Part shown: in pieces, positions 27,310 through 64,000 of the stretch | Numbering within the stretch: position 1 is the stretch's first letter | Layout of the letters: each line of letters begins with the position of its first letter | DNA from: Limihaloglobus sulfuriphilus | Lineage (GTDB): Bacteria; Planctomycetota; Phycisphaerae; Sedimentisphaerales; Sedimentisphaeraceae | Assembly (NCBI RefSeq): GCF_001999965.1 | Contig: NZ_CP019646.1 | Span: 1,984,001-2,048,000 of the forward strand | DNA: 64,000 bases | Direction: 5' to 3' | Position numbers and translations under genes: made by a program | Notes under the pieces: model-generated | What the model saw: the letters and a program-made list of their open reading frames with translations, nothing else | The model's database searches: none | Told to the model about the DNA's origin: nothing

Positions 27310-27321
27310 CTCAGCATAAAG

Positions 27322-30143: not shown

Positions 30144-30155
30144 GTTAGCTAGTAC

Positions 30156-30200: not shown

Positions 30201-30380
30201 CTTGATAGAATATTTAAGAATATTTTTGAGAGGTTTCAAATATGATATACAGACCTTGCTGGAGCAGTGAAAAATATGAGGGGTAAATATCTATTGATTA
30301 TTGATTTAGGTATGTTTATCTGTTAAAATCCCCTTTCATATGGTCATAATTTAATATATTTATGGAGTCTAATAAGGGAC

Positions 30381-43800: not shown

Positions 43801-44508
43801 ATGGGGCTTTATATGTCGTCAAAAACATTCTTTTCCGCAAAAGAAATTGAGTTGCTCAGAGAGAGAGCAAAGCCTGAATTTATTCATCCAGGAGAATATT
43901 CAGGTGGGTGGAGCAAGAGCAAATACGAACCTATGAAAGTTCTTGAGGCATTTCCTTCTCTTTCTATAAAGAGTGGATTTGTTCTCAGAGCTTATCAGTT
44001 TGTGGAAGGAGGGAATGGAAACGGGGTTGTATGGGCAATGCCTGAAGACTGCTCATTTCCTGAGCCGAATGAATGCGATAAATTAAAAGATACATTTTTA
44101 GAATGCCCTCGTCCAGAAGGTGCTATAGACGTTATGGATGTCATTTCTGGTGACGGCTCAGAGTTATCCTATATTTCCGCTTCCATATTTTGCCGTGAAA
44201 TATCTGAACTTGGGGCTTACTGGCATGGAAGCAGCTGGTCTTCCCATACTATTATAGACGAAGATACAAAAACAGAGGAGTTTGATTTTGAGAAGATTAA
44301 GGATTGGGAGTGGTTGGAAGAAAAACCAGTTAATTTTGGCCCTTCAGTTAAAAAGTCGGAAGATAAAACTTTTGTCGTTTTTTATACCCATTCTGGTCTC
44401 ATGCCAGGAGGATTATATAAGCATATAGATATTTATGATAATAATTCATATCGCCCAAAATTGAATTCTGAACGGATAGCAAAAGGTGGTAATCAGTATC
44501 TTTATTAG
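43801..44508 (+). CDS. Unrecognised 235-residue protein
   Basis: No family is recognised. The protein is globular and mixed alpha/beta, acidic, with a Trp/Gly-rich 'HPGEYSGGWSKSKYEP' near the start and 'ELGAYWHGSSWSSHTII' in the middle. An in-frame ATG at 43813 ('MSSKTFFSAKEIE') is an alternative start with GGGG upstream. It belongs to a chain of genes separated by 10-25 bp from hsdR to 48094, so it is probably co-expressed with the NucS-like gene before it and the small Cys protein after it. Confidence 0.55.
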   Translation: MGLYMSSKTFFSAKEIELLRERAKPEFIHPGEYSGGWSKSKYEPMKVLEAFPSLSIKSGFVLRAYQFVEGGNGNGVVWAMPEDCSFPEPNECDKLKDTFLECPRPEGAIDVMDVISGDGSELSYISASIFCREISELGAYWHGSSWSSHTIIDEDTKTEEFDFEKIKDWEWLEEKPVNFGPSVKKSEDKTFVVFYTHSGLMPGGLYKHIDIYDNNSYRPKLNSERIAKGGNQYLY

Positions 44509-44519
44509 GAGAAATAACC

Positions 44520-44717
44520 ATGAACGAGAACCAACCCAAATTTTATGATGACGACGGAACAGAAATTAACCCTGACCTAATCCCCAAACCTGCTCTTTGT
44601 GTTGCCTGTAAAAAAGATGGTATTTCAGGCAAAGAAGAGATACTCTGTGCTCTTACCAGAGCTGACCAGCAGGGAGAGGATGAGTTTAGATGCGATGCTT
44701 ATGAGGCGATGGAGTGA
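44520..44717 (+). CDS. Small cysteine-containing protein
   Basis: A 65-residue acidic protein with a good AGGAGA RBS. Four cysteines ('CVACKKDG', 'ILCALTR', 'FRCDAYE') have a spacing that could bind one zinc ion. The family is not named here, but the pattern of a short Cys protein before a membrane protein suggests a cognate pair: its TGA overlaps the GTG start of the next gene by 4 bp. Role unknown. Confidence 0.55.
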   Translation: MNENQPKFYDDDGTEINPDLIPKPALCVACKKDGISGKEEILCALTRADQQGEDEFRCDAYEAME

Positions 44718-45121
44718 ACCTTTTCGAAGCAGGAATTATACCTTCTATCCCATTCGGTGCTATTATCGGATGGATGATATGTAAGCCTTTTGGCTTCGTA
44801 GCTGCCATAGCAGGAATGGCGGGAGGTGCAATTGCAGGTTTATTTCTTGGCTGGTTATATGGTTTCGTTATTATATTGTTAATGGCATCCTTTACAATTC
44901 CATGGAAGTATATAAGAAAGAAAGCAGAGCCAATGCGGATAAGTGATAAAGAACATGAAATATTGACTAAATGCTCCGCATTGGGTATTTTCATTGGGAT
45001 TTTATGCTCAGGAATTATTGGATTATTCTGCAATTGGATTCTTGGGTTAGTTTTGCTCTTTATATCAGCAGTCATTACATCATTCATATCAGTTGTTTAT
45101 GCTCAAATTAAGATAAGATGA
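44714..45121 (+). CDS. Integral membrane protein with GTG start
   Basis: A 135-residue membrane protein with about four hydrophobic segments (roughly 10-27, 31-59, 87-105, 108-128) and a glycine-rich pair 'GFVAAIAGMAGGAIAGLFLG'. The start is GTG, overlapping the preceding stop (GTGA), which implies coupled translation. A membrane partner in a multi-gene defence cluster often acts as a pore-forming effector, but nothing in the sequence proves this. The following gene starts 10 bp later. Confidence 0.6.
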   Translation: MNLFEAGIIPSIPFGAIIGWMICKPFGFVAAIAGMAGGAIAGLFLGWLYGFVIILLMASFTIPWKYIRKKAEPMRISDKEHEILTKCSALGIFIGILCSGIIGLFCNWILGLVLLFISAVITSFISVVYAQIKIR

Positions 45122-45131
45122 GTTAAAACTT

Positions 45132-46352
45132 ATGGCAGATAAATATAAATGGAACTTTAAAAAATACTTTCGCAGTTCAGCCTACGGCTGGAACGGAACG
45201 GCTAAAGCATCCAAAAGGATGAGAGAGGCTGTCTCTGAGATAAAGAAAGTTGCCAAAAAGGACTCTGCCCTTGCTGGAGAAGGGGCAGTTGAACTCTGTT
45301 CCCGCTTATATCCAGCTCTTATGTATATTGACAGTTCATCAGGAGCCTTGGGGACTGCTTTAAATAGAACAATGGATGCTCTTACTCCTATTCTTATCAG
45401 TGCTGAATGGGATATGAATACAAGAGGCAAGTGGCTTAAAAAACTCTTTGATGCCATACAGGATGAGGGTTGGGGGATTTTTGATGACCTAAGAGACCGT
45501 TGGGGAGAAATATGCGTATATCCTGGGCTTGCCAATCTGTGGGCTGACAGTTTGATTCCACAAGTCAAAGAGTGCTGGCTGAGTGAGAAGTGGTATTTCT
45601 TTGTGGGTTCAGATATGTGTCTTTCCTGTCTTTTATTTACTGAGCGTTATGATGAAATTGAGGAGTTACTGAAATTAAGGAGAAAAACGTTCTGGCCATA
45701 CAACAAGTATCAGGCAATGGCGTTGGCTAAGCAGGGCAAACAGGAAGAAGCCCTTGCATATGCTGAGAAAATGAAGTTGGATGACAGTTCGGGGAACAGT
45801 GATTATTCTATCAACAATTATTGTGAATCATTGCTGATAGATATGGGCAGAACAGAAGAGGCTTATGAAAAGTATGGTCTGAATTTCCCTTATAGTGGCA
45901 CAAAGATTAACATCTATCGCTCTATCTGTAAAAGATACCCTGATATTGATAAAAAGAAAATATTAATTGATTGTATTGAGAAGAAAGGAGAACCGGGAAA
46001 ATGGTTTGCGGCGGCAAAAGATGCCGGTTTTTATGATATAGCAATGAAGTGTGCCAAGTCGTCTAGTTCCGACCCATTTACTCTTTTAAGAGCATCGAGG
46101 GATTTTGCTGATAAAAATACCGATTTTGCTCTTTTTGTCGGCATAAAAGCTATTGTCAAGATGCTTAGGGAAGATTTTTATGAAGAAATATCTACATTTG
46201 ATATAATCTCTGCATACAGGCAAATAGAACAAACTGCCCAGAACCATGGCAGATTGGCTGAACTTAAAAATTCTTTAAACAGAGAAATTAATGAAAAAAA
46301 ATGCAAACCAGTTTTTAGAAACGTTTTATTAAGAATTCTGAAAAATGAATAA
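45132..46352 (+). CDS. Helical TPR-like repeat protein, function unknown
   Basis: A 406-residue, mainly helical protein. The middle contains TPR-like helices ('YQAMALAKQGKQEEALAYAE', 'INNYCESLLIDMGRTEEAYE'), while the N-terminus is well structured ('ELCSRLYPALMYIDSSSGAL', 'LRDRWGEICVYP'). No catalytic motif is seen. It lies 10 bp after the membrane protein gene and 23 bp before the last gene of the chain. A scaffold or sensor role is possible. I believe related hypothetical proteins exist in other bacteria but cannot name the family. Confidence 0.6.
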   Translation: MADKYKWNFKKYFRSSAYGWNGTAKASKRMREAVSEIKKVAKKDSALAGEGAVELCSRLYPALMYIDSSSGALGTALNRTMDALTPILISAEWDMNTRGKWLKKLFDAIQDEGWGIFDDLRDRWGEICVYPGLANLWADSLIPQVKECWLSEKWYFFVGSDMCLSCLLFTERYDEIEELLKLRRKTFWPYNKYQAMALAKQGKQEEALAYAEKMKLDDSSGNSDYSINNYCESLLIDMGRTEEAYEKYGLNFPYSGTKINIYRSICKRYPDIDKKKILIDCIEKKGEPGKWFAAAKDAGFYDIAMKCAKSSSSDPFTLLRASRDFADKNTDFALFVGIKAIVKMLREDFYEEISTFDIISAYRQIEQTAQNHGRLAELKNSLNREINEKKCKPVFRNVLLRILKNE

Positions 46353-50669: not shown

Positions 50670-50726
50670 ATGTTTAATTATAAGAAACTAGCAATGGAGC
50701 TAGTAAAGAATGAGGTCAGAAAATGA
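50670..50726 (+). CDS. 18-residue leader ORF upstream of the methyltransferase
   Basis: ATG at 50670 with an AGGAG 9 nt upstream encodes 'MFNYKKLAMELVKNEVRK' and its TGA overlaps the methyltransferase ATG (ATGA). The strong RBS belongs to this short ORF, and the methyltransferase start has no RBS of its own, so translation is probably coupled. Confidence 0.5.
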   Translation: MFNYKKLAMELVKNEVRK

Positions 50727-51434
50727 CGAATATTGCTGAAGAAATTAACAATTTGCACAAAGCACTAATAAAGATGTCAGCAGGAACTGCCTATAAGATA
50801 GGTAAGTTGCTTATTGAGCAGAGAGCAGCATGTAAGCATGGAACCTGGGAAAACTGGATAGAGGAGAACCTGGAATTCTCAAAATCTACGGCTCGCAGAT
50901 ATATTGATGTATATGAAAAATGTGGGCCTAAAAACCCCAATTTGGAAGATTTGAATAATGTAAAATTATCTCACCTTTATAGGGAAATTGAGAACAACAG
51001 GAAAAAGAAACGCCCGATTCAAGAGTTTAGAGACAGTGATAAGGCCAGGACAGTTATAAGAGAGCTTTTCGCAAATCGTGAACATAACTTTGAAAATCCA
51101 GCAGATGGCAAGACTGTAAATCAGATTATTAACGGCGATACGCTTGAAGTAATGGCGAAGATGGAGCCGCATACCGTGCATCTTATTTGCACATCTGTGC
51201 CTTATAATAACAATCTCGATTATGGAATAGGTCTTGATGGGAAGATAATCAATGATAACAAACCCTACCAAGAATATCTTGATTGGTTGGGGCAATTTGT
51301 AACTCAGTGTTATAGGGTTTTGGTGCCAGGCGGCAGGCTTATAATCAACTGCGACAATCTCACTAACAAGCAGAGGGATGAAGATGGTGAGTTTACATAT
51401 CGCCATGCCCTTGATTGTGATTTGCGTTATAAGG
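50723..51434 (+). pseudogene. DNA methyltransferase, 5' part (split by IS21-family element)
   Basis: The first 237 codons of a site-specific DNA methyltransferase. An N-terminal helical region ('GKLLIEQRAACKHGTWENWI', 'SKSTARRYIDVYEKCG', resembling DUF3102-type phage proteins) is followed by 'NGDTLEVMAKMEPHTVHLIC' and motif IV-like 'TSVPYNNNLDYG'. After 51434 the frame enters the IS and ends at 51457 ('SIGALN'). Removing the IS and one copy of ATAAGG joins this to 54115 in frame, giving about 455 residues. The order motif IV before motif I indicates a circularly permuted class. Intact before insertion; now probably inactive. Confidence 0.85.
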
Positions 51435-51685
51435 TGTCAATCGGCGCTTTAAATTAGGTCACTATGAGCGCGTTCAAAATGGGTCAGTTAAACCAGTTGT
51501 TATTTACTATTTTTAGTTTCATTTGTCAAGTTGGATTTGGATAAAACGATTATTTTCGACGTTATTGGGCAGATACGCCAGGCCTGTTTCGCCCGGACCG
51601 GCGGCCGGGTGAGAATGGGCCACCCAAAAAGCTCGTCGGAACCTGGCCGCCGCAAGCCGGGCGGGACAGGCCGGTTAAGACTGAG

Positions 51686-52453
51686 TCAGCCTTCATGGCC
51701 GGCTCTTTTCTCACAGGCACCATGCTCGGCACGGTCCTTGAGACGGTAGCTGCGGCCTGTGATGTTGATGATCTCAGCATGATGCAAAAACCTGTCCAGG
51801 ATTGCGGTTGCCGATGGTACATCGCCAATTAGCTTGCCCCAGTCTTCCAGCGGCCTGTTGGAGGTCATCATCGTGGATTTGTTTTCATATCGCCGCATAA
51901 TGATCTCCAGCAGATACTCGCCGCAGCGTTTTGGCAGATGCTTGATGCCCATATCATCGATTATCAGCAGCTCCGGCTTGAGATATCTGTTCATTACCTT
52001 ATCCTGACAGGCAAAGGCATCTTCGTGCAGAAAATCCCTGGCAACATCAAATATCGAGCGGTACCGCACAGCCATGCCTGCCTTGACTGCCTGATAGCCT
52101 ATCGCCTGACACAAATGACTCTTGCCCACACCCGGCGGGCCAAGCAGCAAAACATCAATGCCCTCACTGATAAAGCGGCATGTGGCCATATCAAATATCC
52201 GGCTTCTTTTAATCGAAGTGTTGAACTGCCAGTCAAACTCCTCCAGTGTCTTGAGTTCTCTAAACCCGGCAGCCTTAATACCCCTTTGGATCTGGCGATG
52301 CTTTCTGACCAGCATCTCATCCTGCAGGATCAGTTCTAAAAACTCAGCATGAGTGAGGCTGTTGCCGGCTGCCTCCTGCAATCGAACTTCAAGTATCTCA
52401 AGCATACCTGACAACCTTAGTGATTTTAATGTGTTGTGCAGTGAATTGTTCAT
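51686..52453 (-). CDS. istB: IstB ATP-binding transposition helper
   Basis: A 255-residue AAA+ protein with Walker A 'LLLGPPGVGKSHLCQAI' (about residue 103-119) and Walker B 'ELLIIDDMG', the IS21 IstB/DnaC-like helper that selects targets for IstA. AGGAG precedes the ATG. It lies 34 bp downstream of istA in the usual order. Intact. Confidence 0.93.
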   Translation of the reverse strand: MNNSLHNTLKSLRLSGMLEILEVRLQEAAGNSLTHAEFLELILQDEMLVRKHRQIQRGIKAAGFRELKTLEEFDWQFNTSIKRSRIFDMATCRFISEGIDVLLLGPPGVGKSHLCQAIGYQAVKAGMAVRYRSIFDVARDFLHEDAFACQDKVMNRYLKPELLIIDDMGIKHLPKRCGEYLLEIIMRRYENKSTMMTSNRPLEDWGKLIGDVPSATAILDRFLHHAEIINITGRSYRLKDRAEHGACEKRAGHEG

Positions 52454-52487
52454 AATAATCTGCTCCTGAATAAGTTATGATTATTGT

Positions 52488-53987
52488 TCAGCCCAGAACC
52501 TCTCTTACGAATTCTCCGTAACTGGAGATATCTCTGATAATAGGGTGCTCATCTATAAATTCCATCTGGAGCTGCCTGTCACCGCCGTGTTTAATAATAC
52601 TCCTGATGGTCTTCAATCGAAAAGCATTGTGGCTTAACGCTATTTTACATGCATTATCGATTTTGTTACCGTTATAGGTATTGGTCATATTCAGCAAGCC
52701 CAGAAGTACGCGGATACCAGGTATTCCTCTGGCCTCAAGCATCTGCCGGGCCCATCTCTGGGCATTCTCACCTATCAGACTGACTCGTTCAAGCATCCAT
52801 ACAACGCCGTTTTCTATCTTTGTTCTTTTCTCTGAATGAATATGTCCGTCCTGAGTCTGGAATCTGCCCGGCTCAACTTTAGCGTGAACAACAATCTGCT
52901 CCATGCTGCGGTTAAATACTCTTACCATATGGCCGTCCCATCTTGCCCATACCTTGCGGCCGGTATATTCCGGAGGCACCGAGTAATAGGTCCTCTCTAC
53001 CTCTATATGGCCGTCCCTGTGAACGGACCGCTGAGCTTCTGTAAATGAAGGAAACCTTCCAACCGGAAGCCTCAATAAAGCAGGCTTTTCCTGTTCTGTG
53101 AACAATTTGCCTACCTGCTTGCGGGTAGTGCCGTGAATACGGGTATCGGCAATACGGCTCTCCCAGCTGAGAAGAAACTGATTCTGCTCTGAGAGGCTCT
53201 TAAAGCTGCGGCCCTTGAGGGCGTTATTTTTGACATATGCTACTGCTTTTTCAACCTTACCCTTGTGTCTTGGGGTATACGGCTTACAGGGTAAAATGGC
53301 GGTACCGTAATGACGGCAGAATGACACTATTTTTGGGTGTATCTCAGGATCATACCAGTCAGCTTTGTTTACAGCAGCTTTAAGATTATCTATTATCAGT
53401 GTTTGCGGAACACCGCCAAAGTGGTGAAAAGCGTTTTCCAGGCAATTTATAAAGTTATCGCCGGTCTGCCTGAAAACTGCCTCGCTGTAGGATTTACGGG
53501 AGAAGCTAAGCACTACCCGTATTACATGAGTTCTTTTTCGTCTGCCATCTTTCGTTATTACCGGTGCACCCGTACCAAAATCTATCTGAGCCTCTTCACC
53601 GGGCCTGCATTCAAGACGCCTGAACGGAACAGGCGAATTTTTACTGAGGCGGTTGACAAACCTGCGAACGCTGTGGTAGCTGACATCAGAGCCGTGGTCG
53701 TCACGAAGATCCTGCCATATACGCCGGCGGCTGAGCCCCATATCCAGCTTGTTCTTAATTATTTCACGGTAAGGCTCACAATTGCTTACCGGACCGGTTG
53801 AGCTTTGGGCCACCGACCCGGGAGGCGCGTTAGTGACCTGTTTTGAATTATCATTGTCTGATTTTGCATACTTACGCACCGTATCCAGGTGGATGCCAAG
53901 CTCTCTGGATATACGCCTGCAAGACCAGTTACGCTCTCTTAATGTCTGTATTACACTTCTTTTAGTCATTTTTAGATAGTTCGCCAT
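52488..53987 (-). CDS. istA: IstA transposase
   Basis: A 499-residue transposase: N-terminal helix-turn-helix ('RISRELGIHLDTVRKYAKSD'), integrase core with 'EEAQIDFGTG', 'TLIIDNLKAAV' and the glutamate in 'RHKGKVEKAVAYVKNN' (DDE), and a C-terminal beta domain. Length and order match IS21. Its probable promoter lies in the AT-rich palindromic stretch near 54000-54030. Confidence 0.93.
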   Translation of the reverse strand: MANYLKMTKRSVIQTLRERNWSCRRISRELGIHLDTVRKYAKSDNDNSKQVTNAPPGSVAQSSTGPVSNCEPYREIIKNKLDMGLSRRRIWQDLRDDHGSDVSYHSVRRFVNRLSKNSPVPFRRLECRPGEEAQIDFGTGAPVITKDGRRKRTHVIRVVLSFSRKSYSEAVFRQTGDNFINCLENAFHHFGGVPQTLIIDNLKAAVNKADWYDPEIHPKIVSFCRHYGTAILPCKPYTPRHKGKVEKAVAYVKNNALKGRSFKSLSEQNQFLLSWESRIADTRIHGTTRKQVGKLFTEQEKPALLRLPVGRFPSFTEAQRSVHRDGHIEVERTYYSVPPEYTGRKVWARWDGHMVRVFNRSMEQIVVHAKVEPGRFQTQDGHIHSEKRTKIENGVVWMLERVSLIGENAQRWARQMLEARGIPGIRVLLGLLNMTNTYNGNKIDNACKIALSHNAFRLKTIRSIIKHGGDRQLQMEFIDEHPIIRDISSYGEFVREVLG

Positions 53988-54114
53988 AAAGACCTCCGTT
54001 ATATTTTCGATAATATCGATAATATAACGACTCTAAGGCAAAAACTTCCTTTCAAAATGACCTATTTTGACCCGCTCATTACTGACCTGTTTTCAGCGCC
54101 GCTTAACAATAAGG

Positions 54115-54770
54115 TAAGAGAGCTTGATTTGGGCTTATTAGAATACCAGGACATTATATGGTATAAGTATAATAATGGTTCTGCGAAAATTCGTTCTCAA
54201 GGTAAAAAAGTCTCTCCTTCTAAGCCCAATTTGAGGAACTGCAAAGAGCATATTATTATATGGTCAAAAGATAAATTTGAGTTGCCTCAGCCTAGGGGAG
54301 TTAAGCCTGATATTACTCCAGAGGAGTTTGAGGAATGGACTTACAATGTATGGAAGGTTCACCCTAATACAAACAAGAACTGTCCTCATCCTTGCACCTG
54401 GCCAGAAAAGTTATGTGAAAGGCTTATCAAGCTCTTCAGTTTTCCGACTCAAGTTGTTTTAGACCCGTTTTGTGGGAGTGGGACAACTTGTCTCTCGGCT
54501 AAGAATCTAAATCGCTCCTATACAGGAATTGAGCAGAATCCTAATTATTGTCAGTGGGCAAAGGATAGGGTTGAAGGTAAAGATATGGATATGGAGCTTG
54601 CTAAGTTTCTGTTGAGCGTTAAATCTGAATTGGAGGCAAAGCTCGGGATTGAGTTGGTAGATAAAAAATATGGCCGCTATTTCAAGATGGCTAAGCCGAC
54701 TGATAGTATAATTGCTTTTAGTAAATCATCAGTTGAAAAATCTATTATAAAGAAAAGAAAAATAGCGTAA
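54115..54770 (+). pseudogene. DNA methyltransferase, 3' part (split by IS21-family element)
   Basis: The last 218 codons of the interrupted methyltransferase. 'YQDIIWYKYNNG' and 'CKEHIIIWSKD' precede 'FSFPTQVVLDPFCGSGTTCL', SAM motif I, and 'YTGIEQNPNYCQWAKDR'. An open frame extends back to an ATG in the IS end at 54057, but that sequence is IS-derived. With only this half, the SAM-binding motif I is present but the catalytic motif IV is in the other half, so neither fragment should methylate DNA alone. Confidence 0.85.
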
Positions 54771-54983
54771 AAAAAATTATTTTTGAGCAGAAAAGTGAAA
54801 GTAACTTTGTTAAAAAATAAAAATACAGAATGCTTTTACAAGCCCCCATAGAAGCATTTTGAAGCAGTATCAAGAATTTCAAATTCTTTAGTTTTTGAAA
54901 TTCAAGAATAATTTGTGTCCCAAAGACTCGTTGTCGAGGGGTAGAAATACAGTAAATAATTTTTTAATAATAAAGGAAATAAA

Positions 54984-55382
54984 ATGAAAAATCCATCTGA
55001 AAAAACCGTAAATACAGTTGTAACTACAGTATTTGATTGCAGAGATGATGATGAACCCATGTTTTATGGGATGTTTAAATCTATTGAACAATTGGTAAAA
55101 ATGTTTGATGGTGATGCTTTAGTTGCAATATTACCTGTAGATGATAATGACTATGAAGCCTGCTACTATGATAATTCAACTAATGGAAGTAAATATCAAA
55201 TGTTGGAACAGGATGACAAATACGTTATACCCGTTGTTGATGATGATGATGTGATTTTTGATGTATACGAAATTGATTGTCCATTCACTAATGAAGAAGA
55301 GTGGTTTGCTGTCTTCGTTGCAAGAAAGTATGAATTGGATTTTATGCTCTTTGGATTTGGAGTCACATCATGCGTCTTGTAA
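54984..55382 (+). CDS. Unrecognised acidic protein (132 aa)
   Basis: No family recognised. The protein is strongly acidic ('DCRDDDEP', 'LPVDDNDYEACYYDN', 'VVDDDDVIFDVYEID') and ends hydrophobically ('LDFMLFGFGVTSCVL'). The ATG has AAGG-type upstream sequence (AAAGGAAATAAA). It is the first of a series of single small genes with long leaders, like cargo genes of plasmids or ICEs. The 213-bp gap before it has only a small CTCG/CGAG hairpin. Confidence 0.5.
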   Translation: MKNPSEKTVNTVVTTVFDCRDDDEPMFYGMFKSIEQLVKMFDGDALVAILPVDDNDYEACYYDNSTNGSKYQMLEQDDKYVIPVVDDDDVIFDVYEIDCPFTNEEEWFAVFVARKYELDFMLFGFGVTSCVL

Positions 55383-55451
55383 GTATTAAGAGGAAATTGA
55401 GAGATGTGGCTTCCCTATGCCTCTCAACTTATTAATAACAGACAAATAACT

Positions 55452-55557
55452 GAACCCTCGTTGGGTTCGACTCAAGTTTTTGCTTGTAGCGAAAATGAGA
55501 CGCTGAAAGGTCGCAGCGAGTCCAGAAAATGGACTAAAGGGGCCATGAAACTGCAAA
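55452..55557 (+). ncRNA. Candidate structured RNA or 5' leader
   Basis: This 106-nt stretch, in an otherwise AT-rich gap, is GC-richer and folds on paper into GAACCC/GGGTTC (55452-55457, 55463-55468), CGCTG/CAGCG (55501-55505, 55514-55518) and AGTCCA-GAAAA-TGGACT (55519-55535), closed by TTTGC/GCAAA (about 55479-55483, 55553-55557). Purine-rich 'GAAA' loops are typical of structured RNAs. It ends about 40 nt before the next gene, so it may be a leader. No known family is recognised. Confidence 0.35.
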
Positions 55558-55596
55558 TTGTAGTATAATTTTAACCTTTTTAAATAGGAGAAACAA

Positions 55597-55905
55597 ATGA
55601 AAAATATTATTAATGGCAAGGTATATGATACCGAAACAGCAGAATTAATTTGTAGCTATAAATATGGCTATGAAGGAGACTTTAGATATGTCTATGAGGC
55701 CTTATACAAGAGTTACAATGGACAATTCTTCATCGAGTATAAAGGTGGAGCAATGTCTAAGTATTCAGAAATTACAGGTCCGAATGAGGCGTTTGGCGGT
55801 TCTGGAATTCGTCTAATTGATGAAGATGAAGCCAGAGATTTTATAGAGTCTAATGGTTCTACTGAAGATTATGTAAAAGCCTTTGGTGAGCCAGAAGAAG
55901 GCTGA
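55597..55905 (+). CDS. Small mobile-element-type protein (102 aa)
   Basis: A 102-residue acidic protein beginning 'MKNIINGKVYDTETAELICS', with 'FFIEYKGGAMSKYSEITG' and a C-terminal 'DEDEARDFIE' segment. Proteins with this opening and layout are, to my knowledge, common on Gram-positive and gut conjugative elements, but no function is known. An AGGAGA RBS lies 8 nt before the ATG. It follows the structured region at 55452-55557 and is monocistronic. Confidence 0.6.
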   Translation: MKNIINGKVYDTETAELICSYKYGYEGDFRYVYEALYKSYNGQFFIEYKGGAMSKYSEITGPNEAFGGSGIRLIDEDEARDFIESNGSTEDYVKAFGEPEEG

Positions 55906-56068
55906 TATTAAAGTTTGTTGATATAATAAGAGACAAATTCTAGATAAGTCTCTTATCATTGATACATTCTCTCTTGAGTAGTGATTTTAAATTTGATATT
56001 GTTTAATCAAAGATGTGGCAAATTAAATTATTGCTGATATTAATAATAATAAATTAGGAATAAATATA

Positions 56069-56317
56069 ATGAAGAAAAAAATAAAAAAAGATGAATGGAT
56101 GTCGTTTGCATCCTGGCTAAGGGAATACTATCCCCGCACCCTTTACAGTAAATTTAGGTTGAAATATATGGGAGAATTGGGTTGCCTTACTCATGAACAA
56201 ACAGCGAGAGCTGTTTACTATACCTATCCGTCTGCTTATAAGGATTACTTGTTTTATAAAAAATATGGTGCCTTAAAAGCGACTGCTGTTCCAGATTCTC
56301 AATCAATATTTGATTAG
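56069..56317 (+). CDS. Unrecognised small basic protein (82 aa)
   Basis: An 82-residue protein, Lys-rich at the start ('MKKKIKKDEWMSFASWLREY') and Tyr-rich later ('ARAVYYTYPSAYKDYLFYKK'). No family recognised. The RBS is weak (AGGAATAAATATA). A strong stem-loop follows 26 bp after the stop. Probable island cargo. Confidence 0.5.
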   Translation: MKKKIKKDEWMSFASWLREYYPRTLYSKFRLKYMGELGCLTHEQTARAVYYTYPSAYKDYLFYKKYGALKATAVPDSQSIFD

Positions 56318-56343
56318 TGATTTGAATATGTTTATAGTTGTTG

Positions 56344-56380
56344 TTAAGTTAGCGGCGAATCTTTTTTGCCGCTAACTTAA
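56344..56380. terminator. Strong stem-loop after the 82-aa gene
   Basis: A perfect 13-bp stem TTAAGTTAGCGGC/GCCGCTAACTTAA with an 11-nt loop. No T-run follows on the plus strand, so termination efficiency is uncertain. Confidence 0.55.
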
Positions 56381-56450
56381 AAAGGATTTCATTTATCATC
56401 AGCAGTAGGTGAAGTCTGTGTTTATTATATGCTGAAAGAAGGAGAAAAAG

Positions 56451-56831
56451 ATGGAGAAAAATATTCATCAAAGAATTTTTATATGCCCCAAATGCGGGTC
56501 AAACAAATTGGGATATCAAAATTATGTTAAGAGCGTAATGCCTATTATTATTGATGACGCTGGCCAGGTTAGTTATGAACAGCCTGTAGTTGACCATGAT
56601 GACCATGTGCCAGCCGAGTTTGGTTATATCTGTCAGAAATGCGGGAATAAGATATCTCACGCTGGAGAATGGCTTGAGACTGAGTCTGAATTGATACACT
56701 ACTTAAACTTATCCCAAGAACAGTTAGACAGGGAACAAAAGCAGTTCGAGGTATATATCGAAGAACAAGCCCAGGAACAGAAAGATAGAGACGAGGAGAG
56801 GCATCTGTGTTATGAGGAGTGCTGCTCCTGA
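56451..56831 (+). CDS. Zinc-ribbon protein (126 aa)
   Basis: A 126-residue protein with a split zinc ribbon: 'FICPKCGSNKLG' (about 10-21) and 'YICQKCGNKISH' (about 61-72), separated by a 40-residue strand region. The C-terminal helix is rich in Gln/Glu ('LDREQKQFEVYIEEQAQEQK') and ends with Cys pairs. GGAG lies 7-9 nt before the ATG. Function unknown; such proteins are common cargo of mobile elements. Confidence 0.6.
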   Translation: MEKNIHQRIFICPKCGSNKLGYQNYVKSVMPIIIDDAGQVSYEQPVVDHDDHVPAEFGYICQKCGNKISHAGEWLETESELIHYLNLSQEQLDREQKQFEVYIEEQAQEQKDRDEERHLCYEECCS

Positions 56832-56919
56832 TATGGTGTTGAGCTGGAATGGGAGTATATTTCTCATTTTGAGTAATCTGAACTTTTTAAAGCAAGTTCT
56901 TTAGTAAGATTACCAACCG

Positions 56920-56954
56920 CTGGAAAAATATTCTTCGTTCCAGCTCTTTTTTTG
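56920..56954 (+). terminator. Intrinsic terminator after the zinc-ribbon gene
   Basis: Stem GCTGGAA/TTCCAGC with a 12-nt loop, followed by TCTTTTTTT. It lies 89 bp after the gene. Confidence 0.8.
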
Positions 56955-57071
56955 CAAAGAATCTCAATCTATAGGAAAGTGAAAAGGTATTTGATAAAAT
57001 TTCAAAATAGTAAGGAATTCTTTACTTAAAAAAAAAGGATTCTACGGCATTTTGCCGAATATATATATAAG

Positions 57072-57216
57072 GGGACGGCTCTTATAGTTATAGAGCAGGA
57101 TAAAAAATGAATAAAAAAGAAATCATATATTGAAGTTTTACACTACGTAGTATAGACGTATTAAACAATCCTGCTCTGAGCCTGGTACGCCGTCCCGTAT
57201 CGGGCTCATTTTTTTA
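57072..57216 (+). ncRNA. Pseudoknotted leader RNA with embedded leader peptide and terminator
   Basis: Three mutually consistent elements are seen. (1) An intrinsic terminator: 11-bp stem GAGCCTGGTAC/GTATCGGGCTC (57178-57188, 57197-57207) followed by ATTTTTTT. (2) Its 8-nt loop GCCGTCCC (57189-57196) is exactly complementary to GGGACGGC at the presumed RNA 5' end (57072-57079), which makes a pseudoknot or, alternatively, an antiterminator helix. (3) AGAGCAGGAT (57092-57101) pairs with ATCCTGCTCT (57168-57177), hiding the AGGA RBS of a short leader ORF. A TATATA -10-like box at 57060 precedes it. It is the leader of the truncated gene at 57235. Confidence 0.6.
57107..57133 (+). CDS. 8-residue leader peptide inside the pseudoknotted leader
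   Basis: ATG at 57107 encodes 'MNKKEIIY' then TGA. An AGGA (57097-57100) lies 6 nt upstream but is inside the 57092-57101/57168-57177 stem. Translation here could open or be blocked by that stem and thereby influence the terminator. Its small size makes it tentative by itself; the structure around it is the argument. Confidence 0.4.
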   Translation: MNKKEIIY

Positions 57217-57234
57217 ATATAGGAGTAGGAAACT

Positions 57235-57675
57235 ATGAAAAAACGGATAACGTTGAAAAACTTTAAAAGACCTAAAAAATGGTCAGATTATAATTACAAA
57301 CAGTGGTTGAACAACTTTATGGACCTGAACAATTGGTCTCAGAACAAAGGGCGTCCTTTTGATAAGGATAAGAAGATAGGCAGAAGGCGTATAAAATATA
57401 TTAATTCCTGTCTTAGTTGCAAGGTTCCTAATTACAAAAATGCAGAGCCAGAATCCATACAAAAAGCTGCGATGAGAAGGAATTCAGTAAAACTGAATAA
57501 AAAAACAGTAGAAACGCATCTTCATACCTCTGAAAAAGAATTATACTTGTATTATTGCAATTCACCTTTTACTGATTTACCTCTTTTTTGCATTGATATT
57601 GATATTCTGGTTGATGAAGAATCAGGTGAAATAGTTACGAGCAGTCAAGACCTCAAAGAAGCAGAAGAGTATATA
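57235..57675 (+). pseudogene. Truncated plasmid/ICE-type gene (3' end lost)
   Basis: With a strong AGGAGTAGGA RBS, about 147 codons of a basic protein remain ('MKKRITLKNFKRPKKWSDY', 'FTDLPLFCIDIDILVDEESG', 'DLKEAEEYI'). Beyond about 57675 the frame runs into host-type DNA antisense to the beta-helix gene and yields an artefactual tail to 57822. The 'FCIDIDI' strand after a long basic N-terminus recalls replication or primase-like proteins of mobile elements, but the diagnostic part is missing, so this is only a guess. Its complex leader would fit a copy-number-controlled rep gene. Confidence 0.6.
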
Positions 57676-57679
57676 TCTA

Positions 57680-58923
57680 CGTGCCGCATCGTCCGACTGC
57701 TCCATCACAGGTGCAGACCAGTTGCTAAGCGTGATCCCGTTGACGCCCATCTGCTCGATCCAGCAGCCGGAAACCAGGTGATGCGAGTTCTGACCCACAA
57801 TCATTATACCGTTGCGGCCTGAGTTCTTGAGATGACAATTGCGAAGCGTAATCCGCTCGGCGTTGTTCATCCAGACCAGGGCATGGTCGGTGTAGCCCCA
57901 TTCCTGTGCCCACCAGAAACGCGTCGGCGAGATTGCCTTTGAGTATTCGAACGCGAGGCCATCGATCTCGATGTCGTGGACAAGGCTGGTCATGGACGAG
58001 CCTTCGAAGCGGATGATGTCATCCAGGACGGGAAGCACGATGCTGAGCTTGTCGGGGTGAGCTTTTGATTGCGGGATCAGGTAGAGAACCTTTTCGGTGG
58101 TATCGAAATAGAACTCGCCGGGGGCATCGAGAAACGCGCGGTGTTCCTCAAGGAAGTATCGGGCCCTGGCCCTGTCCCCTTTCGGTTCACCGTAGGAGGG
58201 AACCATCGGTGTATCGTCCCGGTCATTGTTAAAGGTTATCTTTGCGGTTGACCGGTCGATTGCGGTGACCGAGCAGATCCAGCGGTGCCAGTCACATTTA
58301 CCCCAGGGAAAGATGTTGATCTTCATGGTTCCAAAATCATCGGGCACCTTGTCGAGATCCTCCTGCACAGCAATGATCCAGCTCTCGGTCGGGGTGGCTT
58401 GCTGCTTGGTGGAGCCGGTTACGGACTTAAGGTATACGCCGGCAGCCGTGGGGAAATCAGGTTCAAATTCGTAGTTGGGGTAACGGGCCTTGCGGATGCG
58501 CTTGCCGTTTTCATAAAGCGTGTGGCAGCTCTGGATATCGGGCAGGTTTATCTTCCAGATATTGTCATCGACTTTTGACCAGCCGGTCAGGCGTCTTCCG
58601 CCGAGCAGTCTCGCCTTGCCTGGGCCGCCGCTGCTGCGGTAATATACTTTATATCCGTTATTACCCGAGTCCCGGTCAGTGAAAACTATTGCCTCATCCA
58701 GGATATAGTCACCGGCTGCCGCATGGACGGTTATATCCTGATCCATCTGGGGTATCAGCTCACGCACAGCATCGCGGGCACGGGCTATAGTCAGAAAAGG
58801 TTTTTCGCGGCTGCCGGGGTTCTCGTCAGATCCGGATGTACTTACATAAAAGTCCTGCCCGAAGCACGCAGCGGCGGAAATTAGAATTGCGGTTATTTGT
58901 GCAATAGATTTTAAACTCATCAT
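57680..58923 (-). pseudogene. Truncated secreted right-handed beta-helix protein
   Basis: About 414 codons from an ATG at 58923 (AAGGTG upstream; alternatives at 58920 and GTG 58929). Signal peptide 'QITAILISAAACFG', then 'FYVSTSGSDENPGSREKPF' and 'LTIARARDAVREL', typical of planctomycete beta-helix glycan lyases or glycosidases, an insert, and the first helix coils ('RITLRNCHLKNSGRNGIMIV', 'HHLVSGCWIEQMGVNGITLS'). After 'EQSDDAAR' the sequence turns into island DNA read backwards and stops at 57622. Family members are usually much longer, so the C-terminal part is lost. Confidence 0.75.
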
Positions 58924-59177
58924 AAACACCTTTCTGCAAATTAAGAATATAGATCTAATAGTTGTTTATTAGCGGTCTTTCCAGTAAACACTGACCCTGC
59001 ACCAGCCATTATAACCTGTATGCCGGCGTTTTACAACATATTTCAGCTCGCGAAGACACCAAAAACGATCAATTACGATTCGCGGCGGTTCAAACACCTG
59101 ATCTTGCCGCGAGATAAAAAAAGTGCAAACTGCTTTTGTTTATAAGGTCTTTATTAACAGGTATATATAAAACTGAG

Positions 59178-59234
59178 GGCGAAATAAAGAGGCGAAATAA
59201 AGGGGTTAAAACGGCGAAATAAAGGGGTTAAGAC
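59178..59234. repeat. Short tandem repeat, unit about 22 bp
   Basis: GGCGAAATAAAGGGGTTAAAAC (with one base changed in the second copy) at 59191-59212 and 59213-59234, preceded by a partial unit at 59178-59190. It lies in the 414-bp gap between the beta-helix remnant and the transposase remnant. Apart from a 7-bp TCGCGGC/GCCGCGA stem at 59080-59112, nothing else is seen in that gap. Confidence 0.6.
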
Positions 59235-59337
59235 TCTTTGTTTTATAAGTTGATGTTTTACAGTTGCTTATATTTTATTTTTGAGGTTATTATTGACGAT
59301 TGACGTAACTATTATAAGCTCGGATAATCACAATATT

Positions 59338-59463
59338 ATGCCGCGTCCAAAGCGTAAATTCAAAGGCGGTTACTGTTAGCATGTACTCAACCGTTCCAAC
59401 GAAAGACTGCGTATATTCAGGAAACGCGGCGACTTTCTTGCGTTAGAACAGATTATCGGGTGA
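59338..59463 (+). pseudogene. Remnant of a REP-associated tyrosine transposase (RAYT)
   Basis: Translated from ATG 59338 this reads 'MPRPKRKFKGGYC', an in-frame TAG (59377-59379), then 'HVLNRSNERLRIFRKRGDF' and 'LALEQIIG' to TGA at 59461. This is the conserved N-terminus of Y1_Tnp/RAYT transposases ('GGYCYHVLNR', 'IFxKxGDFxAFEQ'). It is both interrupted by the stop (replacing a Tyr) and cut off before the catalytic tyrosine. Too short for ordinary ORF calling. Old mobile-element debris. Confidence 0.75.
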
Positions 59464-59482
59464 ATAAAGGTCGCAAATTTTT

Positions 59483-60484
59483 CTACCACGCAAACGCCCC
59501 TGGTGCCGGACCGGGCTTGAACGGTCTGCCCTTGTTTATATCGAATATTTCGTTGAGTTTTGCCAGTGTCTCCGGGGCAAGCTCGATCTCTGCCGCCCTC
59601 TCGAGGCCTTCGAGGTGTTCAACCTTGCGGACTCCCACTATTGGAGACGCCACAGCCGGATGAGAAAGCACCCAGGCTATCGCCACTGCATGCGCCGGCT
59701 CGCCCAGATCGCTGCATATCTTGTGGAAAGCCCCAATCTGGCTGCTGCCTTCGATACTTATGCCGTATTCATTTTCAACGTTGGCAGTACGGGTGTTGGG
59801 CTGTGATTTTGTCTTGCCGGTGAGAATTCCGCCGGCCAGCGGCATATATGGTATCGCACCGATGCCCAGCTCAAGGCACGCCGGCAGAACTTCCATTTCC
59901 GGGCCGCGGCTTAGCAGGTTGTATTGAGTCTGCTCAGAGATGATGCCAAGCCTGCCGCGGGCTGCCGCCATATTCTGGAACTTCATCAGCCCCCAGCCGG
60001 GGAAATTGCTCGTACCCATATACAGCACATCGCCGTCATCAACGAGCTTATCGAAACAGCCCCAGTACTCCTCGCCGGTGATATGCGTGTCGATGTGATG
60101 CACCTGATACAGGTCAATATGGTCGGTCTGGAGCCTGCGGAGTGAACCGGCGGCGTGTTTTCTGACCTTGTACGCGGATATGCCCGGCTCCTCGTTGGGC
60201 AGATCCCCGCCGGCCATATTGCCGAACACTTTTGTCGCCAGCACTATCCTGTCGCGCCGGCCGCCGCCCTGTGCAAGCCAGTTTCCGATTATCGTCTCAC
60301 TGCCGCCGCGGTTATCCGGCCCGCCGTACATGTTGGCGGTATCAAAAAAGTTGATGCCCATCTCGAGGGCCTTGTCCATGATGGCGAAGGCCTCTTTTTC
60401 GCCGGTCGCGCTGCCGAAGTGCATCGTCCCCAGGCAAACCCGGCTGACGGTCAGATTTGAACGTCCCAGTTTTGTGTATTTCAT
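59483..60484 (-). CDS. Aldo/keto reductase
   Basis: A 333-residue NADPH-dependent oxidoreductase of the aldo/keto reductase superfamily. 'FDTANMYGG' (catalytic Asp and Tyr, about 48-56), Lys in 'VLATKVFG', His in 'LYQVHHIDTH', and the NADPH-binding 'SPIVGVRKVEHLEG' near the C-terminus are all present. Length and order match the YajO/YccK-like group. GAGGAG lies about 8 nt before the ATG. Substrate unknown; it may process sugars or aldehydes from glycan breakdown. Confidence 0.92.
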   Translation of the reverse strand: MKYTKLGRSNLTVSRVCLGTMHFGSATGEKEAFAIMDKALEMGINFFDTANMYGGPDNRGGSETIIGNWLAQGGGRRDRIVLATKVFGNMAGGDLPNEEPGISAYKVRKHAAGSLRRLQTDHIDLYQVHHIDTHITGEEYWGCFDKLVDDGDVLYMGTSNFPGWGLMKFQNMAAARGRLGIISEQTQYNLLSRGPEMEVLPACLELGIGAIPYMPLAGGILTGKTKSQPNTRTANVENEYGISIEGSSQIGAFHKICSDLGEPAHAVAIAWVLSHPAVASPIVGVRKVEHLEGLERAAEIELAPETLAKLNEIFDINKGRPFKPGPAPGAFAW

Positions 60485-60542
60485 TTTATCTCCTCTTTAA
60501 ATTACTTCAATATCGCAGAGCGAAGTTTCCCCGCGGGTTATA

Positions 60543-60803
60543 TCAATGCCCAAGCAATTGTCTGGTAATGGAATTTTTATCCTTGAGTATTTTCGAGCCG
60601 CGAGTGATTTTACAAAGGCTGATTCGCATTTTTTTTGCTATCTCACGCTGCGGCATACCCTGGTCAATCAGCTTTATGAGCTTCCAGCGTTTTTTGAATT
60701 TTTCGATTTCAGATTTGGTAAAAAGCTCCTGGAAAAATTTACCAAGCTCAGCGGGATCATCCATTTCTGCAATGATTTCCAATAAATCTTTATCATCTGA
60801 CAT
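60543..60803 (-). CDS. TrpR-like (YerC/YecD-type) regulator
   Basis: An 86-residue protein, started at the ATG at 60803 rather than the in-frame TTG at 60809. 'LFTKSEIEKFKKRWKLIKLI' and 'MPQREIAKKMRISLCKITRG' with 'SKILK' match the Trp-repressor superfamily helix-turn-helix; the spacing resembles the stand-alone YerC/YecD group rather than E. coli TrpR. It lies between the aldo/keto reductase and ribH, convergent with neither. DNA targets unknown. Confidence 0.8.
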   Translation of the reverse strand: MSDDKDLLEIIAEMDDPAELGKFFQELFTKSEIEKFKKRWKLIKLIDQGMPQREIAKKMRISLCKITRGSKILKDKNSITRQLLGH

Positions 60804-60937
60804 GATCAAAACCTGTTCTAAATATGATATAAGTATAATGTCATAACTATTCTACAAATATTCAGACGTTTTAAAAGAAAATTTCGAAAAATACTCCATA
60901 ATCCCTCAACAGCATCTTTCGCTAGTCAAAATAACTC

Positions 60938-60966
60938 TTTACAAACACTGCATGAGATATTATAAT
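60938..60966 (+). promoter_or_regulatory. Promoter of ribH
   Basis: TTTACA (60938-60943), 17 bp, TATAAT (60961-60966): strong sigma-70 promoter. The predicted start near 60973 lies beyond the upstream ATG at 60968 and therefore supports the ribH start at 61007. Confidence 0.7.
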
Positions 60967-61006
60967 TTTGAAAAGTTTGATATATCTCTATATTGGAGAA
61001 AATGAT

Positions 61007-61483
61007 ATGATAACAGAAATTAATGGACAATTAAGTGCCGGCGATGCCAGGTTTGCTGTCGTAGTAAGCCGGTTCAACGAGCTGATAACCAGCAAGCTGC
61101 TTGGCGGCGCGATCGATTCACTCACCCGTCACGGTGCCGGCGAGGATCAGATAACCGTTATCTGGGTTCCCGGAGCGATCGAGATACCCATCACGGCTAA
61201 GCGGCTCTGCCAGAGCGGCAAGTTTGACGCGGTAATCTGTTTAGGTGCCGTAATTCGCGGCTCTACAAGCCATTATGACTATGTCTGCCAGCAGGTATCA
61301 CGCGGCGTAGCACAGATAAACTACGATACCGGAGTACCGGCGGTCTTCGGCGTGCTTACATGTGAGACCATTGAGCAGGCTATTGAACGTGCCGGAACAA
61401 AAGCCGGTAACGCCGGCGCAAATGCCGCTGTCGGCGCGATAGAAATGGTAAACGTTCTTCGTGAGATAGATGAGACTCTGTAA
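61007..61483 (+). CDS. ribH: 6,7-dimethyl-8-ribityllumazine synthase
   Basis: A 158-residue lumazine synthase, the penultimate step of riboflavin synthesis (condenses ribitylaminouracil with dihydroxybutanone phosphate). '[18 protein letters not shown]', '[14 protein letters not shown]', '[20 protein letters not shown]' (with the catalytic His) and '[13 protein letters not shown]' are diagnostic. The start at 61007 has GGAG 9 nt upstream and fits the family N-terminus; the upstream ATG at 60968 precedes the predicted transcription start. nusB follows after 69 bp, a common ribH-nusB pairing. Confidence 0.95.
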
Positions 61484-61552
61484 ATAATCGCGGCCGACGC
61501 AGGCCGGTTAGCTGTTTATGCTCTTTTTAAATATCAAAAGGATGGAAATATA

Positions 61553-62023
61553 GTGGACAAAAGGACCAAGGCCAGAGAAATAGCCATGCAGGCTTTGTTT
61601 CAGCTTGATGTGCAGGGAGACCGCGTTCTTGACTGTATTGACGGTTTTATAAAAGAAAACTGCCAGGAAGAGCTTTCCGAACAGCTCGCCCGGGAGTGGT
61701 GTATGGGAACCAGGCAGCACATCGCAGAATGTGACCGGATTATCGAAAAAGCCGCCCCGAGATGGCGAATCCAGAGAATCGAACTTCTGGAGAGAAACAT
61801 ACTTCGGCTGAGCTGTTATCAGCTGCTCAAATGCAGTGAGATACCCTCCAAGGTAGTGATCAACGAGGCTATAGAGATGGCCAAGAGATACGGCTCCGCG
61901 CGTTCACCGGCATTTGTAAACGGCGTTATGGACGCGGTACACCGAATAATAAACGAAGAGAAGAGAGACGCAAAAACACCGGATATACAATCCGTTTCGG
62001 CAGGCGCGGAGATAGCACAGTGA
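61553..62023 (+). CDS. nusB: Transcription antitermination factor NusB
   Basis: A 156-residue NusB with 'AREIAMQALFQLDVQG' at the start, 'PRWRIQRIELLERNILRLSC' and 'EIPSKVVINEAIEMAKRYGS' at the conserved RNA/S10-binding helices. It promotes antitermination on rRNA operons with NusE. The start codon is GTG, with AGGATGG about 8 nt upstream. Its TGA overlaps the GTG start of parA by 4 bp. Confidence 0.94.
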   Translation: MDKRTKAREIAMQALFQLDVQGDRVLDCIDGFIKENCQEELSEQLAREWCMGTRQHIAECDRIIEKAAPRWRIQRIELLERNILRLSCYQLLKCSEIPSKVVINEAIEMAKRYGSARSPAFVNGVMDAVHRIINEEKRDAKTPDIQSVSAGAEIAQ

Positions 62024-62943
62024 GAAAAATCGCAGTCCTAAACCAGAAAGGCGGTGTCGGCAAGACCACAACCGTCGTCAACGTTGCCGCCGCACTGGCA
62101 GACCGCAGAAAACGCGTACTGGTGATAGATCTCGACCCGCAGGCCCACCTTACAATACACCTTGGCGTTGACCCGGAGAATATCGAATACGGGCTTTACG
62201 AGCTGCTCATTGGCCATTGCGAGCCGCACCAGGCGGTTGTCGAAGTCCGCGAAAACATCAGCCTTATCGGGGCGCATATCGACCTGGTAGGCACAGAAAG
62301 TGAGCTTGGCGGCGTTGACAACCGGGAGCAGAGACTCAAAAACGCCCTTGAGCCGCTGGAAAACGATTTTGATTATCTTCTCATCGACTGCCCTCCCTCA
62401 CTGGGGCTGCTCAGTTTAAACGCGCTGGCGGCGGTTACTGAGATAATCATACCTCTCGTGCCGCATTTTCTCGCCCTGCAGGGACTTGGAAAACTCTTCG
62501 AGACGGTAATGCTGATAAATCAGCGGATAAATCCCCGGCTCAAAGTCAGCGGCATCCTGCTCTGTATGTTCGACTCGAGGACTTCGCTCAGCGGCGAGGT
62601 AAAAAACGATATCGACCAGTTCCTCGACGCGGCACGCGGCACAGATGCCCCTTGGGCCGATGCCCAGATAATGCCGATTGAGATACGAAGAAACATAAAG
62701 CTCGCAGAAGCACCGAGTTACGGCCAGACAATCTTTGAGTATGAGCCAAACTGCAACGGGGCTGTGGACTATATGCAGATCGCGGCGTTTATTCTCGGCA
62801 CCCAAAAGCCGCAAAGGCAACCCCGGCAGCCGGCAAACGACCGGATAAACCCGCTTATAAGAGCCCTCTCAAAAGCGTCAGAGGCACATCAGAAAGCAGA
62901 AACAGACAGCCGGGATATAGATGAAAACAAGTCTCAAATTTAA
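62020..62943 (+). CDS. ParA/Soj family ATPase
   Basis: A 307-residue deviant-Walker ATPase. 'NQKGGVGKTTTVVNVAAALA' (about 8-27) holds the P-loop with signature lysine, 'VIDLDPQAHLT' is A', and 'DYLLIDCPPSLGLLSLNAL' is Walker B. It starts with GTG overlapping the nusB stop (GTGA), so it is translationally coupled to nusB. The C-terminal 40 residues are basic and proline/Gln-rich, beyond the core domain. No parB follows in the visible sequence; chromosome segregation or positioning of another cargo are both possible. Confidence 0.88.
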   Translation: MRKIAVLNQKGGVGKTTTVVNVAAALADRRKRVLVIDLDPQAHLTIHLGVDPENIEYGLYELLIGHCEPHQAVVEVRENISLIGAHIDLVGTESELGGVDNREQRLKNALEPLENDFDYLLIDCPPSLGLLSLNALAAVTEIIIPLVPHFLALQGLGKLFETVMLINQRINPRLKVSGILLCMFDSRTSLSGEVKNDIDQFLDAARGTDAPWADAQIMPIEIRRNIKLAEAPSYGQTIFEYEPNCNGAVDYMQIAAFILGTQKPQRQPRQPANDRINPLIRALSKASEAHQKAETDSRDIDENKSQI

Positions 62944-62995
62944 AAGTCTAATGTTATTTTTGCTGAATATTTTGTAATAACCTCTATAAGGTAAA

Positions 62996-63241
62996 TTGGT
63001 GTGGAATTTTAATGAAATTAAAGAAATAAAATATAAAGGCGGATATATTTATCACATAGAGTTTGATGATTCTATCAAAGGTGACATTGATTTCTCATCT
63101 TACCTTGATAAAGGACCTGTATTTAAGCCCTTGGCTGACATTGATTTCTTTAAAAGTGCAAGGATAGATGGCGGTACAATAGTTTGGCCAAATGGTGTAG
63201 ATATAGCTCCAGAAACGCTGTACGAAAAATTACAGAATTAA
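62996..63241 (+). CDS. DUF2442 domain protein
   Basis: An 81-residue protein matching the DUF2442 layout: '[20 protein letters not shown]', then '[19 protein letters not shown]' and '[17 protein letters not shown]'. The start is TTG at 62996 or the adjacent GTG at 62999; AAGG lies upstream. DUF2442 genes are often next to DUF4160 genes and have been linked to toxin-antitoxin-like pairs. No DUF4160 partner is visible here. AT-rich compared with parA. Confidence 0.8.
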
Positions 63242-63274
63242 ACCGAAGTCACCGGACAACCAGAGGATTCAGTA

Positions 63275-63553
63275 ATGCCAACCATAAAAGATGTTATAGT
63301 TAGAAAACCCAGTGAGCAGGAAAAACAGGAATGTCTTCAGTGGCCGACATGGTCAAGCGGTGTAAGTAAGTTTGACTGGGAATACACCCAGAGAGAAACC
63401 TGCCTGGTCATGGAGGGCAGGGTTACCGTTTACAGCCCTGACCAGAGAGAATCTGTGTCATTCGGCGCCGGAGATATGGTTATTTTCCCCAATGACCTTG
63501 CCTGTATATGGGATGTAAAAGAGCCGGTGCTCAAACATTATAACTTCAGTTAA
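63275..63553 (+). CDS. Small cupin (DUF861-like) protein
   Basis: A 92-residue single cupin domain: 'WPTWSSGVSKFDWEYTQRET', 'LVMEGRVTVY', 'FGAGDMVIFPNDLACIWDV'. This matches the small cupin group related to ureidoglycine aminohydrolase (DUF861). The enzymatic role of the stand-alone short form is unknown. No clear RBS was found; it begins 33 bp after the DUF2442 gene. Confidence 0.85.
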   Translation: MPTIKDVIVRKPSEQEKQECLQWPTWSSGVSKFDWEYTQRETCLVMEGRVTVYSPDQRESVSFGAGDMVIFPNDLACIWDVKEPVLKHYNFS

Positions 63554-63595
63554 AGCATCCGGCATATAAGAAAACTATCATCGCGGAGCAGAATA

Positions 63596-64000
63596 ATGAA
63601 TGATATCCGCTTGAAACGGCGATTCATTAATTACAAAAAGGCATTTGCCGGACTTGCTGACGCGGTCGCGCTCGCCGAAAAGCGGGAACTTTCCGACCTG
63701 GAAAAACAGGGAATTATACAGAGCTTTGAGTTTGCACACGAACTGGCCTGGAATGTACTTAAGGATTATCTTGAGCACAAGGGCTACACCAACATTATCG
63801 GCTCACGGGATGCAAGCCGCACAGCTTTTAAGAACAGTCTCATACAGGATGGAGACGCCTGAATGAAAATGATCATGGATCGAAACAAAACATCCCACAC
63901 CTATGATATGAATACAGCCGACGATGTAGTGAAAATATCATAAAGGCGTTTTATCCGACGTTCAAAAAACTGCTTGATAATTTCAACGCCCTATACACAG
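63596..64000 (+). pseudogene. Broken HI0074-type nucleotidyltransferase-partner (HEPN) gene
   Basis: The first 88 codons ('RFINYKKAFAGLADAVALAE', 'QSFEFAHELAWNVLKDYLEH') match the nucleotidyltransferase substrate-binding/HEPN family of MNT-HEPN modules. TGA at 63860-63862 replaces the expected Trp of 'GDAW'. The same frame continues 'MKMIMDRNKTSHTYDM' (the conserved R-x4-H region) and then needs a one-base frame change near 63932 to read 'NIIKAFYPTFKKLLDNFNAL'. So the gene carries a nonsense and a frameshift lesion. It continues past the window edge; the partner nucleotidyltransferase is not visible. Confidence 0.75.

Follow-up and report, generated by a model that had tools for sequence, protein, structure and literature searches.

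The window analysed here is a stretch of 64,000 nucleotides from the chromosome of Limihaloglobus sulfuriphilus. Within it, the remnant of a genomic island meets chromosomal DNA at a point where two genes that face each other are both broken. Positions are counted from the first base of the window unless they are given as positions in the chromosome. The main features, from left to right, are listed here.

27237-27310, plus strand: tRNA-Lys (TTT) gene, found with ARAGORN; the presumed integration target, whose 3' end is attL, the sole att copy
27311-57679: island remnant of about 30 kb, recognized by composition, its right limit taken from a change-point scan
27898-29145, plus strand: tyrosine integrase of the island (Pfam PF00589, E 5.5e-18; SAM-like and Arm domains)
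57066-57217, plus strand: leader of the broken plus-strand gene, with a terminator-like hairpin at 57177-57208 and an 8-codon open reading frame at 57107-57133
57235-57679, plus strand: 5' remnant of an island gene of putative primase type; open frame, weak homology to a 650-aa protein, shared DxD
57668-57685: junction, with a best estimate of 57679/57680 from the change-point scan and a right-hand homology limit of 57715
57680-58923, minus strand: 5' remnant of a chromosomal beta-helix gene; its 3' part is lost and its frame enters the island to 57622
59483-60484, minus strand: intact aldo-keto reductase gene (Pfam PF00248, E 3.1e-65), the first whole chromosomal gene to the right of the scar

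The segment from 27311 to 57679 has the marks of an integrated island. A tRNA gene stands at one end with a tyrosine integrase adjoining it, mobile cargo is present, and the composition deviates from that of the surroundings (GC 0.40, versus 0.47-0.49 in the flanks). Type I restriction-modification genes lie inside it.

Some smaller elements were seen in and beside the island. An IS21-type element (51458-54056) splits a DNA methyltransferase gene, of which the two N6_N4_Mtase halves lie at 50723-51457 and 54057-54770; DNA identical to 52363-54108 occurs at about 1.4085 Mb of the same chromosome. To the right of the junction, intergenic repeats at 59195-59457, with units like GGCGAAATAAAGGGGTTAA, recur elsewhere in the chromosome, for instance at 2353390 and 1603689.

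The genome also holds a sister island at about 1.428-1.446 Mb. It shares with the window the stretches 30107-30368 (98%), 44508-46216 (89%) and 56469-57083 (91%), and a fourth match between the two is the IS21-type element. The sister island (L048/L049) carries related accessory genes together with a type I restriction-modification set of its own. The homology stops just past a zinc-ribbon-like gene, which in the window (56451-56831) precedes the broken plus-strand gene. About 65 bases beyond this point begins an insertion sequence that encodes a 348-aa transposase, and the sister island therefore does not show an intact element end.

At the right limit of the island, two reading frames run toward and past each other. 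The plus-strand frame starts at ATG 57235 and is open through 57822 (195 aa), where it reads antisense into the beta-helix gene. The minus-strand frame starts at ATG 58923 (the open reading frame is listed from GTG 58929) and is open to 57622 (435 aa), reading antisense into the island. The antisense overlap of the two is about 200 bases.

The position of the join was estimated with a two-model change-point scan, which contrasts a Markov model of the island with Markov models of the beta-helix gene or the chromosome. The last island-like base was 57679 in all three models, and the bases within 2 log units were 57668-57684, 57671-57685 and 57636-57685. Measured over 40 nt, GC goes from 0.38 (57640-57679) to 0.65 (57680-57719). 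No insertion sequence and no notable repeat was seen at the join. The DNA there is unique genome-wide, and none of its 78 14-mers is repeated within the window. An 8-nt inverted repeat (57639-57646 and 57695-57702) sits astride the join, at about the level estimated for chance in 251 bases.

The chromosomal gene at the junction retains about 415 codons. Its product matches Pfam family PF13229 with 25.8 bits, against a cut-off of 25.9. The best relative is a 1045-aa protein from a Lentisphaerae MAG, which is 48% identical over 403 residues without a frameshift. The match runs up to residue 405, at window position 57715, and the relative extends about 600 residues beyond the matched part.

Loci of 31 beta-helix homologs were fetched (L011-L040 and L044), and 25 of them were aligned. 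Outside the alignment are L017, L018 and L020, which are further matches in genes already represented, and L029, L038 and L040. All 25 aligned homologs run on beyond the matched part, by about 260 residues or more. Judged by these homologs, the gene in the window is truncated, because their frames all continue past the break.

The same comparison bears on whether anything is broken at all. Two convergent genes might overlap naturally, each of them whole, and both frames do reach stop codons; against this stand the 25 homologs that continue and the sharp change of composition at the junction, which leave the idea with practically no credence. Neither a natural overlap nor a natural gene end fits the junction. 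The preliminary description had claimed that both genes lose their 3' parts at about 57675-57685, and the open frames, the change point at 57679 and the continuing homologs bear this out. Homologs that end naturally at the break were looked for on both sides. None of the aligned beta-helix homologs does so, and the sole full-length homolog of the plus-strand gene, which is weakly similar, continues as well.

The missing half of the beta-helix gene was sought with the 606-aa tail of the 48% relative as query against the same chromosome (one contig of 3,868,357 bases, 99.97% complete). Two weak matches were returned, with E values of 1.4e-6 and 3.7e-4, to query residues 443-602 and 507-600 in the last third of the tail. 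The 440 residues directly past the break had no match in the closed 3.87-Mb chromosome. Eight other genes of this genome are distant beta-helix paralogs with 25-42% identity in the first half, and the tail search does not reveal the matching parts of these. An ortholog half at about 48% identity should have shown up in it.

A chimeric assembly would likewise give two broken genes at one point. In that case both genes would be whole in the living cell, and the junction is known from the assembly alone. However, the assembly is a single contig of near-full completeness, and since the DNA at the join occurs only once, no repeat was there to mislead the assembler. In addition, the stretch past the beta-helix break is found nowhere else in the assembly, where it would be expected on another piece unless it had been dropped. 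A chimera is therefore disfavoured, and we regard it as quite improbable.

A rearrangement by inversion or translocation, one of its breakpoints being 57679, is improbable too. It would break two genes in one step, and the missing halves would then lie together elsewhere in the genome. Gene order in this region is not conserved, since tRNA-Lys and ribH are apart in the relatives' loci that were read, a point in its favour. The beta-helix 3' half, however, was not found in the closed chromosome. The GC skew is without a clear flip, at -0.08 and -0.12 in the left flank versus -0.05 at 2048-2060 kb of the chromosome, this skew being weak and following gene direction.

The island gene on the other side of the junction has no stop codon before the join, and its frame goes on antisense. 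Its native end is therefore gone, whatever its length. Searches of 59 and then 397 genomes gave a single full-length relative, a protein of 650 aa with 28-30% identity over the N-terminal part (E 4.2e-4), which extends about 470 residues further than the remnant. The fragment matches one other genome among the 397; the searches also gave a weak match of 38 residues in genome G017 (E 0.0046). With the 650-aa relative as query, two more weak relatives were found (E 2.4e-4 and 5.2e-4).

Profile searches say little about the fragment, which has no match in Pfam, PHROGs or NCBIfam. Searches with it and with the 650-aa relative gave no relatives among viral contigs, plasmids and phages, and no solved structure was found. 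The 3' halves of both genes had been expected to be missing from the rest of the genome if a deletion had occurred. This stood for the beta-helix half, which was not found, while the corresponding search for the plus-strand gene was insensitive, its query being a distant relative.

Archaeo-eukaryotic primases carry an hhhDhD motif followed by an sxH motif. The hhhDhD motif is common to all four aligned members of the family, and the window copy breaks off after the DxD. An STxxxGxH motif is present in all three whole relatives, and the window copy is cut between the two motifs. The 650-aa relative reaches 17.1 bits against the archaeo-eukaryotic primase profile PF22548, for which the cut-off is 27, and it has a weak match to the phage DNA polymerase/primase family phrog_8643 (E 0.0066). 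Its gene sits between a tRNA-Asn gene and a short open reading frame that by eye resembles a tyrosine recombinase. Taken together, these motifs and surroundings make it probable that the plus-strand gene, of putative primase type, once served the replication of an integrative element. Upstream of a distant relative there is a small Cys-rich open reading frame (L095, 2720-3166), zinc-finger-like by eye, as there is in the window.

An island that has entered a tRNA gene is expected to be flanked by two att copies, and here there is one. With up to one mismatch allowed, the last 20 bases of tRNA-Lys occur only once in the chromosome, and the surroundings of 57.6 kb contain no exact match to 27237-27360 that is 11 bases or longer. 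The possibility that attR is hidden nearby or elsewhere was thus considered and dropped. attR is absent, which a deletion of the right end of the island would explain, and the element is treated here as a truncated island and not as an intact one. With one att copy, tRNA-Lys is the presumed integration target.

This single copy also leaves room for another reading. A mobile element might have inserted into the beta-helix gene and end naturally at 57679, the remaining half of that gene having been lost later. The tRNA target is unproven when only one att copy is present, and the break in the chromosomal gene coincides exactly with the start of island DNA. On the other hand, a gene of the island is cut open at that same base, and elements do not usually cut their own genes where they end. 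The integrase and the tRNA gene are at the opposite end, which is the usual arrangement, and a beta-helix 3' half was found neither at the island's left end nor anywhere else. A natural end at this position is highly improbable.

Related genomes were also compared. For 11 relatives the loci of tRNA-Lys and ribH were located, and none of the 10 loci read has a beta-helix gene beside tRNA-Lys. tRNA-Lys and ribH are not neighbours in the relatives' loci read, and neither an undeleted form nor an empty site was found among them. The tRNA-Lys gene may be a recurrent integration target: in G002, a relative from the same family, the same tRNA gene is abutted by a truncated open reading frame (L052, 1516-2073) whose C-terminus looks integrase-like by eye.

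Very probably, the island entered at tRNA-Lys and a single deletion then removed its right end, attR included, and cut off the 3' part of the beta-helix gene. In the first step, an integrative island would have entered the 3' end of tRNA-Lys by means of its tyrosine integrase. Later, one deletion would have joined the plus-strand gene of the island, at 57679, to the neighbouring beta-helix gene, which was oriented with its 3' end toward the island. This deletion would have taken the rest of the plus-strand gene and the right end of the island, including attR. From the beta-helix gene it would have removed about 0.8 kb or more, to judge by the shortest homolog tails. On the side of the plus-strand gene the loss amounts to about 1.4 kb, judged from the single 650-aa relative.

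Deletion of the right end would explain both the missing att repeat at the right border and the two broken genes that face each other. A deletion or illegitimate joining with these losses was already proposed in the preliminary description, and the proposal is upheld by the failure to find the beta-helix half and by the single att copy. We infer the tRNA as target, one event as opposed to several, the joining route and the loss of mobility; several successive events would look the same as one deletion. The 400-odd codons retained by the beta-helix gene contain no stop or frameshift, which suggests that the event was recent.

The ends were likely joined by a RecA-independent illegitimate route, either replication slippage or end joining without Ku, because no insertion sequence, repeat or Ku protein marks the join. 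Ku is absent from the genome; in the control, the same search gave a match in one of 14 genomes, that of Bacillus subtilis. Ku-dependent end joining is accordingly unlikely. A deletion adjacent to an insertion sequence was also considered and rejected, as there is no such sequence at the join and the nearest one, the IS21-type element, lies to the left, its end about 3.6 kb away.

This type of deletion is ordinary and has already been described in other bacteria. The High-Pathogenicity Island (HPI) of E. coli at asnT has lost its right border along with adjacent chromosome, its direct repeat is gone, and the island is fixed (PMC2606025). The present island resembles the HPI in being presumably tRNA-borne and in the probable loss of the right border, adjacent chromosome and the repeat. 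As expected of a border deletion of this type, a chromosomal gene is truncated at the junction and the lost sequence was not found elsewhere, the latter on the beta-helix side only. The two differ in tRNA, cargo and lineage. Moreover, the HPI deletion occurs in many strains and its undeleted form is known, whereas here the deletion is seen in one genome.

A second example is the GI-pheV islands of E. coli. Flanking repeats are present in 27 of 41, and its authors ascribe a missing attR to ancestral stabilising deletions (PMC11537424). That missing attR, attributed to deletion, is the likeness to the present island; the tRNA and the cargo are different, and for GI-pheV the backbone is known from K-12. 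The window thus adds one more island, probably fixed by loss of the right attachment site, from a lineage distant from that of E. coli. Such an island would no longer be able to leave by attL x attR recombination, and it should be unable to excise cleanly.

The sole part of the locus that might interest a specialist is a candidate attenuator in front of the broken plus-strand gene. The leader at 57066-57217 has a fold z of -4.8, and a longer stretch gives -4.4. In a terminator scan, its hairpin resembles an intrinsic terminator and ends 26 nt ahead of the start codon. Because the space between the T-run and the start codon is so small, there is little room for another promoter, and transcription probably has to read through. 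This leader may be an attenuator. A search of 54000-64000 against Rfam gave one match, far below the gathering score, and a limited literature search found no related report of such a leader or attenuator.

The layout is partly shared by the relatives. The gene of the 650-aa relative is preceded by a hairpin whose T-run ends 35 nt short of the start, and by an 8-codon open reading frame that follows AAAGGAG. In a third member the hairpin has 17 pairs and a poorer T-tail, its end lies 37 nt from the start codon, and there is no leader reading frame; a fourth member has neither hairpin nor leader frame. Under one fixed rule, a terminator-like hairpin lies within 90 nt upstream in three of the four family members versus 2 of 230 other gene starts, a comparison with controls from this one genome and with a small family, and one that was prompted by the window copy itself. 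The controls were 231 starts of open reading frames, from the window and from sampled stretches of the same genome, with three positives, one being the plus-strand gene itself.

A broader idea is that the broken gene comes from a sparsely distributed family in which integrative elements keep a primase-type replication gene behind a transcription attenuator, made up of the terminator-like hairpin 26-37 nt ahead of the start and, for two of the members, an 8-codon leader frame preceded by a sequence resembling a ribosome-binding site. This is tentative, a possibility more than an expectation. If true, the attenuator would make expression of this gene depend on the cell's state of translation or on an antisense RNA. 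The leader also contains a long stem, and by eye, pairing looks possible between bases 57072-57079 and bases 57189-57196, the latter within the terminator.
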